A stretch of 64,000 bases of DNA from Mesonia sp. HuA40 (GTDB lineage: Bacteria > Bacteroidota > Bacteroidia > Flavobacteriales > Flavobacteriaceae), in NCBI RefSeq assembly GCF_008017835.1, contig NZ_VRLT01000005.1:1-64000 (forward strand), in the 5' to 3' direction. This document shows positions 25,776 through 29,484 of the stretch, in pieces. The notes beneath the pieces are model-generated. The model saw only the letters and a program-made list of their open reading frames with translations, searched no databases and was not told where the DNA came from. How positions within the stretch are numbered: position 1 is the stretch's first letter; every line of letters starts with the position of its first letter. Position numbers and translations under genes: made by a program.

Positions 25776-26465
25776 TTATTCTATAATGATTTTCTTCATT
25801 TTCTGCCCTATTTCACCCTCAATTTTTACAAAATAAATACCCGGTGAAAGTTGAGATACATTATAACTGCTTTGTGGTTTTTTAAAATGCATTTCTTCTT
25901 TTCCGTTAACGGAAAAAATACGAACTGTTTTAATATTGCTGCCAGCACTTATATCTAATTGAAAACTGCTTGTTGCGGGATTAGGATAAAGATCAACTTC
26001 TAATTTTTCATTGCTAGAAACCCCAAGTTGTTGGTTACGGTATATGGCTTGATCGCCATTGGCGTTAGTTATTGTTAGTTCAATATAATTGGATTTGTAA
26101 CTAAAGACGTAAAAAAATGGATTGTTTGAAAGATTAATGCTAAACATTATTTTTTCATCATATTCTGTTATTTGCCGAGGCAAGCCGTCACAGTCTAAAG
26201 GTGTACTTGCATCATTGATATTAAAAGTTTGGTTTTGACTATAGTTTAATGTTCCTTGAATGGGATAACAGGGTGCATTAAGGGAATAATCTGCACCGTT
26301 AGCAAAATTTGCGAAATAAGAATTACTAAACCCACTGGGTACAAAAAAATCTGTATTGTTAATAACTAATTTCTCTAAATACCAAGTATGATTTTCTAGC
26401 GGGGCTACTTGCGCAAAGCTAGTTAGGCTTAACAAGCAAATAACTAATTTTATGACTGTTTTCAT
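25776..26465 (-). CDS. Tandem T9SS type A exported protein, copy 1 (last in operon)
   Basis: A small secreted or surface protein of unknown role. The 229 residues comprise a signal peptide (ending TSFAQ) and a core of about 130 residues. The type A sorting domain (Por_Secre_tail) starts at about residue 155, with VDLYPNPATSSF, VRIFSVNGKEEM and LSPGIYFVKI. The core opens with ENHTWYLEKLVIN and has two spaced cysteines (PCYPIQG, LDCDG). This pattern is loosely META/HslJ-like (weak inference). The C-terminus GQKMKKIIIE differs from the other three copies. That suggests it keeps the original 3' end while the others arose by duplication. Confidence 0.85.
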   Translation of the reverse strand: MKTVIKLVICLLSLTSFAQVAPLENHTWYLEKLVINNTDFFVPSGFSNSYFANFANGADYSLNAPCYPIQGTLNYSQNQTFNINDASTPLDCDGLPRQITEYDEKIMFSINLSNNPFFYVFSYKSNYIELTITNANGDQAIYRNQQLGVSSNEKLEVDLYPNPATSSFQLDISAGSNIKTVRIFSVNGKEEMHFKKPQSSYNVSQLSPGIYFVKIEGEIGQKMKKIIIE

Positions 26466-26469
26466 AGAA

Positions 26470-27174
26470 TTAAATTTTTAAAAGCTTAATATTATTCTTA
26501 ACGTATTCACCCTCAATTTTTACAAAATAAATACCTGGTGAAAGTTGAGATACATTATAACTGCCTTGTGCTTTTTTAAAATGCATTACTTCTTTTCCGT
26601 CAACGGAAAAAATACGAACTGTTTTAATATTGTTCCCAGCATTTATATCTAATTGAAAACTGCTTGTCACAGGATTAGGATAAAGATCAACTTCTGATTT
26701 TTCATTACTAGAAATCCCAAGTTGTTGGTTACGGTATATGGCCTTATCGCCATTGGCGCTAGTTACTGTTAACACTATATAATTAGGTTGATAATTGAAG
26801 GCGTAAGAAAAATTATTATTGATATTACTTATATTTATATATGTATGAGATATTAATAAGTCATACTCATCTACTCCATTTAAAGATGGACAAGTGGATA
26901 AAGTTACATAAGCATAATTCATTTTAAACTTTTGATTATTCAAATGTGTTATTCCACCTTCAAGATAAACAGCAGAGCAAGGTGAATTAAAATAATATAA
27001 CGAGCCATTTAAAAATTCAGTAGTATAACTATTTTGATAAGCCGTTGGCGGCAGAAAATCATTTCCACCTATTACCAATTTTTCTAAATACCAAGTATGG
27101 TTTTCTAGTGGGGCTACTTGCGCAAAGCTAGTTAGGTTTAACAAGCAAATAACTAATTTTATGACTGTTTTCAT
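26470..27174 (-). CDS. Tandem T9SS type A exported protein, copy 2
   Basis: A 234-residue paralogue of copy 1. The signal peptide and first ~35 residues and the last ~90 residues are nearly identical to its neighbours. The core (about 45-140) has diverged strongly (SPCSAVYLEGGITHLNN, STCPSLNGVDEYDLL). It ends in EYVKNNIKLLKI after the sorting domain. Four bases separate it from copy 1. It keeps two cysteines in the core at equivalent places. Export across the outer membrane by the T9SS is expected; function is unknown. Confidence 0.85.
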   Translation of the reverse strand: MKTVIKLVICLLNLTSFAQVAPLENHTWYLEKLVIGGNDFLPPTAYQNSYTTEFLNGSLYYFNSPCSAVYLEGGITHLNNQKFKMNYAYVTLSTCPSLNGVDEYDLLISHTYINISNINNNFSYAFNYQPNYIVLTVTSANGDKAIYRNQQLGISSNEKSEVDLYPNPVTSSFQLDINAGNNIKTVRIFSVDGKEVMHFKKAQGSYNVSQLSPGIYFVKIEGEYVKNNIKLLKI

Positions 27175-27178
27175 AGAA

Positions 27179-27883
27179 TTAAATTTTTAAAAGCTTAATA
27201 TTATTCTTAACATATTCACCCTCAATTTTTACAAAATAAATACCTGGTGAAAGTTGAGATACATTATAACTGCATTGTGGTTTTTTAAAATGCATTACTT
27301 CTTTTCCGTTAACTGAAAAAATACGAACTGTTTTAATATTGCTCCCAGCATTTATATCTAATTGAAAACTGCTTGTTGCGGGATTAGGATAAATATTAAC
27401 ATCTGATTTTTCATTGCTAGAAATCCCAAGTTGTTGGTTACGGTATATGGCCTTATCGCCATTGGCGCTAGTAATTGTTAAGACAATATAATTGGACATA
27501 TTAGTAAAAGCATAAGTAAATGGGTTTGGATGACCAGTATAGAAATCATAAAACTCGAATATATACGTGGTATCAAACATATCAGCATCTGGGACACTCG
27601 GACATTCGCCTGGTCCTACCGAAGAATTGGTTATAGTGAATTGACTATTCCCGTTATCATAAATCATTATACCAAGCAAATCCGAACAAGATTGCACTAA
27701 AAAATAATCTTGTTGATTGTTCCAGTTAAAATCATTATAAGGATTTAAATTTTGAGGCGGAAATACATCATTCCCGTTAATTACCAACTTTTCTAAATAC
27801 CAAGTGTAGTTTTCTAAGGGCGCTATTTGTGCAAGGCTACTAAAGCTCAATAAACAAATAACTAATTTTATAATTGCCTTCAT
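27179..27883 (-). CDS. Tandem T9SS type A exported protein, copy 3
   Basis: A 234-residue paralogue with the most divergent core of the set (FNWNNQQDYFLVQSCSD, GPGECPSVPDADMFD). The ends are conserved, except that the signal peptide starts MKAIIKLVICLLSFSS and the sorting domain reads VNIYPNPATSSF. It is spaced four bases from copy 2 and four from copy 4. The combination of frozen ends with a changing middle is seen directly in the sequence. Recombination between copies is an inference. Confidence 0.85.
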   Translation of the reverse strand: MKAIIKLVICLLSFSSLAQIAPLENYTWYLEKLVINGNDVFPPQNLNPYNDFNWNNQQDYFLVQSCSDLLGIMIYDNGNSQFTITNSSVGPGECPSVPDADMFDTTYIFEFYDFYTGHPNPFTYAFTNMSNYIVLTITSANGDKAIYRNQQLGISSNEKSDVNIYPNPATSSFQLDINAGSNIKTVRIFSVNGKEVMHFKKPQCSYNVSQLSPGIYFVKIEGEYVKNNIKLLKI

Positions 27884-27887
27884 AGAA

Positions 27888-28585
27888 TTATATTTTTAAA
27901 AGCTTAATATTATTCTTAACGTATTCACCCTCAATTTTTACAAAATAAATACCTGGTGAAAGTTGAGATACATTATAACTGCCTTGTGGTTTTTTAAAAT
28001 GCATTACTTCTTTTCCGTCAACGGAAAAAATACGAACTGTTTTAATATTGCTCCCAGCATCTAAATCTAACTGAAAACTGCTTGTCACAGGATTAGGATA
28101 AAGATCAACTTCTAATTTTTCATTAACAGAAACCCCAAGTTGTTGGTTACGGTATATGGCTTGATCGCCATTGCCGTTAGTTACTGTTAACACAATAAAA
28201 TTAGATTGATAAGTGAAGGAATAAGAAAAAGGATTATTTGGTGCATTAGTATTAACATAATCGTTGATTATTTTTAAATCAAAATCTATAACTTGCTGAG
28301 ATAAGCCGTCACAATCTAATGGATAGCCCGCAAAATTAATATTAAAACTTTGGTTTTGATTGTAGGTCAATGTACCATCAACTGGATAACAAGCGGCTAA
28401 AAAAATAAAATCTGCACTATTGGCAAAATTTGCAGTATAACTATTTTGATAGGCACTTGGTGGCAGAAAATCATTCCCGTTAATCACCAATTTCTCTAAT
28501 ACCAAGTATGATTTTCTAGCGGGGCTACTTGCGCAAAGCTAGTAAGGCTTAACAAGCAAATAACTAATTTTATGGTTGTTTTCAT
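27888..28585 (-). pseudogene. Tandem T9SS type A exported protein, copy 4, frameshifted near the start
   Basis: The full-length reading begins at ATG 28585 with an intact signal peptide (MKTTIKLVICLLSLTSFAQ) and continues to ENHTWY. It then meets TAG because one base is missing at about 28498: the codons TGG TAT TTA GAG of the other copies read TGG TAT TAG AG here. Past the gap the frame is open to 27888 and encodes a normal core (AACYPVDG, PLDCDGL) and sorting domain. Re-initiation at TTG 28505 would give 205 residues without a signal peptide, so it is probably not exported. A sequencing error in a short A-run remains possible. Confidence 0.8.
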
Positions 28586-28596
28586 GATTTAAATTT

Positions 28597-29011
28597 TTAT
28601 TGTATTACAAGATTTTTTGATGCAATGATTTCACCATCACAATAAGGAATAACCACATAAATTCCAGAGGCATAGTTGGAAACATCAATACTTAAATTGG
28701 GATTCTTTACTTTTAATATATAATTATCGTAAACGGCAAGAGGTGTAAAAGTAATTCTAATTTGGTCTAAAGATGTACCTTGGGTTATATGATTTTCCTG
28801 CACCCGCTCTTTAAAAGGATTAAGACCTTGACCTTTAAACGAAAAAGGGTTTTCACTGCTTAGCCAAGCATAAACTTTGTGCTCAACCCTATAAAATCTA
28901 ATTTCAGCTTCTTTTTCTTCTATGTAATAATAATAAACTGCTGGATACGTTTCTTGCGCCAACATCGCTGAACTAGCTAATGTAAGTAAGTAAGTAAGTA
29001 ATTTTTTTCAT
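28597..29011 (-). pseudogene. Small T9SS-type exported protein, out of frame at a (TTAC)5/A7 tract
   Basis: ATG 29011 opens MKKITYLLTYIS and then stops at TAG. Downstream, in a frame one base away, an open stretch of 122 residues (28965-28597) continues with the end of a signal peptide (LASSAMLAQ). A body with YYYYIEEKEAEIRFYRVEHK follows, then a C-terminus like a type A sorting domain (SNYASGIYVVIPYCDG). Losing one TTAC unit, or one A from the A7 run, would join the two into a perfect signal peptide. The gene is thus either phase variable and currently off, or decayed. It is first of the five-gene array, 11 bases before copy 4. Confidence 0.7.
28982..29008 (-). repeat. Simple sequence repeat (TTAC)5 preceded by A7, inside a start region
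   Basis: Five exact tandem tetranucleotides (28982-29001) adjoin seven A residues (29002-29008, minus strand). They begin immediately after an ATG. Both tract types are prone to slipped-strand change of reading frame. Confidence 0.9.
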
Positions 29012-29169: not shown

Positions 29170-29484
29170 TTAAGCTTGACCAGTAGGTCCAAAATTCAAT
29201 GGGATTGGTGGCTTATCATCGTTTTCTATAGTACCATGTGCTTGCTCAAAACGCTGTATATTTTCACCAAGTGCCTTATGCAGTCGTTTGGCGTGCTGCG
29301 GAGTAAGAATAATCCTAGATTGCACCTTACTTTTTGGGGCTCCTGGCATAATACTCACAAAATCAACCACAAATTCTGCCGGAGAATGATTTATGATGGC
29401 CAAGTTACTGTATTTACCTTGTGCCGTTTCATTATCGAGCTCAATATTTAATTGATTCTTTTTATTTTTTTGATCTTCGCTCAT
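29170..29484 (-). CDS. DUF3467 family protein
   Basis: A small cytoplasmic protein of unknown function. The 104 residues contain the DUF3467 pattern: GKYSNLAIINHSPAEFVVDF, then MPGAPKSKVQSRIILTP and HAKRLHKALGENI. It follows rpoC by 13 bases and precedes the terminator, so it is the last gene of the RNA polymerase operon. Its position after rpoC is, as I recall, conserved in Flavobacteriia and may hint at a transcription-related role. That link is inference. Confidence 0.9.
   Translation of the reverse strand: MSEDQKNKKNQLNIELDNETAQGKYSNLAIINHSPAEFVVDFVSIMPGAPKSKVQSRIILTPQHAKRLHKALGENIQRFEQAHGTIENDDKPPIPLNFGPTGQA

Follow-up and report, generated by a model that had tools for sequence, protein, structure and literature searches.

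Repeat-based switching of gene expression is best known in host-adapted bacteria such as Neisseria and Haemophilus. Among the systems described there, NalP of Neisseria meningitidis is a secreted subtilisin-like protease that is switched by slippage at a poly-C tract within its coding region (PMC5472700). The proteins examined in this study resemble NalP, as judged from its description, in combining a secreted subtilisin-like protease with a putative slippage tract in the coding region; however, NalP is an autotransporter, whereas the proteases studied here end in a type IX sorting tail, stand next to a partner gene and have repeats of several kinds. AutA and AutB of N. meningitidis differ from these proteases in both protein family and secretion route. 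The partners can be placed among the proteins with type IX sorting tails (PF18962, TIGR04183), as all 17 of those scanned match PF18962. A high density of short tandem repeats has been described for the Bacteroidota (PMC12699852). Among the matches listed, the titles and opening lines of abstracts of open-licence PMC articles do not mention switching by repeats, either of type IX cargo or in the Flavobacteriaceae, and a search of PMC2831843 for 'Bacteroid' and 'Flavobacter' gave no match. The protease is complete in marine relatives, often with another short repeat at the corresponding position, and this suggests an on/off switch of secreted proteases that has been little described.

The locus of interest lies on the minus strand of the window, by which we mean the whole 64-kb stretch of DNA analyzed, taken from a genome of 2.64 Mb in 62 contigs (G000). 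An ATG start codon (29011-29009) and seven A residues (29008-29002), together occupying 29002..29011, are followed by a 20-base (TTAC)5 tract (28982..29001, read as 29001-28982). The frame opened by this ATG ends at a stop after 12 codons (28973..29011, reading MKKITYLLTYIS*), and the 122-codon open frame downstream (28597-28965) lies in another frame, which confirms the out-of-frame start reported in a preliminary description of this DNA. Upstream on the same strand is a gene for a 104-aa protein (29170..29484) that is present in 16/16 genomes of the genus and served as a synteny anchor; we take the outer neighbors, named by eye, to be rpoC and prfC. (TTAC)5 occurs once in the window and in none of 100 dinucleotide-preserving shuffles of it; among perfect tracts of 4-12-base units it alone exceeds three copies, three other tracts having exactly three. 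A chance origin of the tract was ruled out by the shuffles together with this uniqueness. TTAC tracts of at least four units were found in two of the 16 genomes of the genus, both times at the start of the protease or stump gene and nowhere else in these genomes. The window gene carries a 5' coding tandem repeat that sets the reading frame, which is a defining feature of slippage phase-variable (contingency) loci.

To place this gene, the corresponding locus was retrieved from each of the other 15 genomes in the genus, with the 104-aa neighbor as anchor. At this position G004 has a 967-codon open frame (953 codons from an internal ATG) followed by a gene for a 233-aa partner protein. The large protein is a subtilisin-like (S8) protease (Pfam PF00082, E 2.4e-29) that keeps the active-site residues and has a sorting tail scoring 24.8 bits, just under the cut-off of 27. 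An identical A7(TTAC)5 precedes this intact gene, likewise out of frame. The window gene aligns with the G004 protease at its ends only, over roughly the first 20 and last 100 codons with nothing between: about 20 codons (28906..28965, minus strand; alignment row L022) correspond to the N-terminus at 85% identity and about 100 codons (28597..28908, minus strand) to the C-terminal sorting tail at 45% identity. The S8 catalytic domain (PF00082) is absent, and searches of the stump against Pfam and NCBIfam gave no match at E 0.001; the sorting-domain-like C-terminus noted previously thus matches no family model, although it aligns with the G004 tail. The same stump occurs in G001 and G012, a broken C-terminal piece stands at the locus in G015, and no such gene appears at this locus among the open frames listed for the remaining 11 genomes of the genus. 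The description 'off state of a phase-variable gene', which had been given to the window copy, fits the intact G004 gene better.

The window copy is probably a relic in decay, derived from a family of slippage-switched cassettes that each encode a secreted protease and its partner. Such a cassette would consist of two genes, the first for a large S8 protease, exported by means of a signal peptide and a sorting tail of type IX, and the second for its smaller secreted partner. At the gene start of many members, in or before the signal-peptide codons, lies a short tandem repeat. Replication slippage would change the repeat length and bring the start codon into or out of frame, thereby turning production of the protease on or off. 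Several replacements of the repeat unit would have taken place with its position kept. In the lineage of the window the protease has lost its middle; what remains of it, with the tract at the start, the N-terminal codons and the tail, is out of frame, and the partner genes are present in two to four tandem copies. The tracts, frames, homology, internal deletion, synteny and partner adjacency are observed directly, and the logic of a switch is well supported at the level of the family; switching in the cell is what we infer, with a tract that would change length reversibly, a frame that would govern export and a partner that would restrain or assist the protease.

The extent of the family was examined with an N-terminal-domain profile (A1, 12 rows), run over 397 genomes of the family with the 12 best candidates per genome scored. 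Matches were obtained at 53 places, distributed over 42 genomes. Of these, 11 were strong (E below 1e-28), with open frames of 927-1006 codons and one exception of 237; G339:C1 was a fragment, and the remaining 41 were weak, all with frames of 133-677 codons. Four further long-type loci (G450, G002, G004 and G010) and ten short-type loci came from searches of three genera. The resulting long set comprises 16 loci in 11 genomes, two of which supply seven of the loci, so that these are not independent; the short set comprises 51 loci with none dropped; a 62-codon fragment in G015 and three stumps stand outside both sets. An order-wide draw of 395 genomes returned one long-type match at E 1e-12, G057, which was already included. 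The active-site D, H, N and S are kept in 14/14 aligned long-type proteins, five out-of-frame ones among them, two of the 16 being too short for the alignment. The sorting tails of the proteases scored below the cut-off or gave no match in the Pfam scan. Against defence and toxin models the G004 protease matched general subtilase and IetS-type entries, and the one partner protein compared matched none.

Repeats of five kinds are found in the 160 bases before the domain at 10 of the 16 long loci. They are C-runs of 14, 13 and 10 in G316, the last of these at G316:C62, C-runs of 8 and 7 and 11-mers of 6.7 and 3.3 copies in G339, a 10-mer array in G056, an 8-mer of 4.5 copies in G140, and five TTAC units in G004. 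Under a strict rule set after seeing the data (a C/G run of at least 7, or at least three copies totaling at least 18 bases), a 5' coding tract within these 160 bases is present at 10/16 long versus 0/51 short loci (Fisher 3e-8, the loci being non-independent), and a looser first rule admitted T-runs and 12-15-base repeats at 4/51 short loci (Fisher 2e-5, with the same non-independence). Extending the region to 500 bases upstream gave tracts at 12/16 long versus 1/51 short loci, the former including poly-G runs of 11 (G057) and 9 (G450) about 200 bases before the protease. A coding tract is lacking in six members of the long type. A tree was built from 13 proteases, G010 and two broken loci being omitted; on it six unit labels ('none' included) need six changes, and labels are somewhat clustered, as few changes being seen in 13/200 shuffles. 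G316:C82, with a C-run, and G056, with the 10-mer, form a sister pair with support 97/97. Because the tree needs six changes and these sisters differ in unit, the place of the repeat appears to have been kept while its unit changed.

These comparisons bear on the alternative that the tract is chance low complexity in a signal peptide rich in leucine, the shift having arisen by simple decay or through an error of assembly. The stump is indeed decaying and has a second frameshift 0.5 kb away, four long-type members lack any tract within 500 bases of the domain, and the G010 protease gene is split into two frames without any tract. Nevertheless, we regard this alternative as unlikely in view of the same tract, at the same length, before the intact G004 protease and of the five repeat kinds at homologous gene starts, set against none at the starts of the 51 shorter homologues under the strict rule.

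The reading-frame state of the long loci was compared using one genome per species, at the level of species assemblies. Among the ten loci with a coding tract the start codon is in frame at three (G316:C74, G316:C82 and G339:C2a) and out of frame at seven, the fragment G339:C1 among them, as against 6/6 in frame among the long loci without one (Fisher 0.011); the state of G056 was judged from its three frames. Five of the seven out-of-frame loci (G004, G339:C6, G339:C2b, G140 and G056) retain the catalytic D, H, N and S within a frame longer than 900 codons, and the other two are broken. G056 may contain a second frameshift; an otherwise intact gene stands behind the repeat in G004, G339:C6, G339:C2b and G140, which is not the case for the window stump. 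When six tracts in other genes are counted with the ten protease tracts, 13/16 are 'off' (0.17 against two in three expected), a proportion compatible with that expectation but also with decay. We favor a switch over decay because the place of the repeat is kept, the unit changes and active sites remain intact behind out-of-frame starts. The phase-variable anatomy originally proposed for the window gene can be recognized across the family, with its varied 5' repeats and its in-frame and out-of-frame members, but the window gene itself is a stump.

The second component of the proposed cassette is represented in the window by tandem genes on the minus strand, separated by 4-base gaps. Four genes do follow the stump, as previously described, of which the first (27888..28585) is frameshifted just after the signal peptide and reads MKTTIKLVICLLSLTSFAQVAPLENHTWY*, being one base short after conserved Trp-Tyr codons and so running into a stop; the corresponding genes of G001 and G012 are open. 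The other three are intact and encode proteins of 234 aa (27179..27883), 234 aa (26470..27174) and 229 aa (25776..26465; PF18962, TIGR04183), identified in the ORF list and, for the first two, the Pfam scan, each with a sorting tail. G001 has three such copies, G012 two and G004 one. The window copies (25776-28585) differ mainly in mid-gene, the signal peptide and tail being far more alike, a pattern such as would be left after gene conversion.

A partner gene of 231-267 aa starts 3-50 bases downstream at 15/16 long loci, and at the fragment G339:C1 partners lie several hundred bases further on. All 15 adjacent partners match the partner-domain profile A5 at 8.8e-22 or better, this profile having been built largely from the same partners. 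In the alignment of 17 partners one W is invariant and two cysteines are nearly so; besides the sorting tail, Pfam matches were restricted to DUF3244, weakly in 5/17, and TcfC in one. Comparison of the partner with solved structures gave eight matches, all within the sorting tail. The partners show dN/dS of about 0.2-0.5 (dS 0.12-0.19, dN 0.02-0.07). With 10-12 best candidates taken per genome, the partner domain was found in 53/397 genomes, seven of which gave a strong long-type protease match in the same draw, and a strict tie between partner and protease was ruled out by these counts. Because the partner adjoins the protease and survives its loss, our guess would be an inhibitor or immunity protein.

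Against this background, the preliminary description of the window gene as one that still works, encoding a small secreted protein under phase variation, can be assessed. The start codon, the tract and the 122-codon frame are all retained, and the frame stays open across a block about 40% diverged from G012, in which 122 codons are likewise open. This block of about 200 bases (28700..28898, minus strand) was delimited by windowed identity and dN/dS; it is about 60% identical to G012, falling to 55-63% inside the stump, and lies between windows of 92-94%, and the flanks of G000, G001 and G012 are 92-100% identical by window except for 84% just behind the block versus G001. Within the block dN and dS relative to G012 are both about 0.55. 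It was probably imported or replaced, and the genome of the window contains no paralogue as donor at E 0.001. Along the stump, dN/dS is about 0.3 in codons 1-22 (G000 versus G012, with five differences only), about 1 in codons 23-86 and above 1 in codons 87-122, and G012 versus G001 gives about 0.56 over 75 codons, values that suggest constraint that is at most weak and yet not wholly absent. Tract length does differ among these close relatives, which are species-level genomes, at 5, 3 and 3 units in G000, G001 and G012, but G001 has lost the start codon and has a frameshift within the gene, the G012 tract (TTAC TTAT TTAC) is interrupted by one changed base, and none of the four syntenic copies (G000, G001, G012 and G004) is in frame. 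For a product of internal deletion with no protease domain or other family match, a dN/dS of about 1 in its middle and a frameshifted first partner gene, a working function is quite improbable, and the window copy is most likely a dead relic.

Runs of A7 and of C can promote slippage in principle, but expression of the out-of-frame genes by polymerase slippage or ribosomal frameshifting at the tract is very improbable, since units of 8, 10 and 11 bases offer no slippage site and members in both wrong frames exist.

The occurrence of similar tracts elsewhere was surveyed as runs of at least nine C or G in 12 chosen genomes, which gave 28 distinct tracts, 27 of them viewed (G316:C20 was left out). 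Three belong to the G316 proteases, two lie upstream of long proteases, six are inside genes, ten are intergenic or unclear, and six are 5' coding in other genes with none in frame. Weak metalloprotease matches were obtained for three of these six genes (G316:C45, G339:C1 and G057:C2), the first two with a sorting tail; for the remaining three no Pfam match was obtained. A switch of this kind, should it be real, may thus extend beyond S8 proteases. One gene of 890 codons with a sorting tail and weak M43/reprolysin matches (L251:1043-4924) lies out of frame behind C9 and is followed by a partner-like gene for a 397-aa protein with a sorting tail, giving the same layout with another protease type.

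Several further runs were observed in other settings. A ten-G run of the window's own genome (G000:C22; L261 1444-1453, minus strand) encodes Gly-Gly-Gly in frame within a DUF6252-like protein of about 190 aa (26.7 bits, cut-off 27.2), and similar runs occur in similar-looking genes of G002 and G056, one in a shortened frame. Intergenic poly-G of genus g43 (L138:169-179, L141:3685-3693, L266:1022-1030, and L248 at 1571 and 3336) lies in the context TTTGGA or TTTAGA, G9-11, TAAAnT, twice upstream of a long protease; two L254 runs lack this context. Given the promoter consensus that we assume here, this poly-G might alter promoter spacing. The G316 contigs C20 and C80 (the end of L254) begin or end exactly inside C/G runs of 17 and 14, as if the assembly had broken at the tract.

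For the Flavobacteriaceae as a whole, the chances seem evenly balanced that repeat-switched type IX proteases occur with a secreted partner, perhaps an inhibitor or immunity protein, that their repeats have been lost and reborn with another unit, that in one genus poly-G between divergent genes may play this part at the promoter, and that lineages without the protease, such as that of the window, keep and multiply the partner. If this is true, marine Bacteroidota would use repeat switching for extracellular proteases, and the differing units at one site would provide a natural series for the birth and loss of switches. It would also raise the question of why a secreted protease should be hedged, whether as a public good, as an activity aimed at phages or rivals, or as one from which the maker itself has to be protected.
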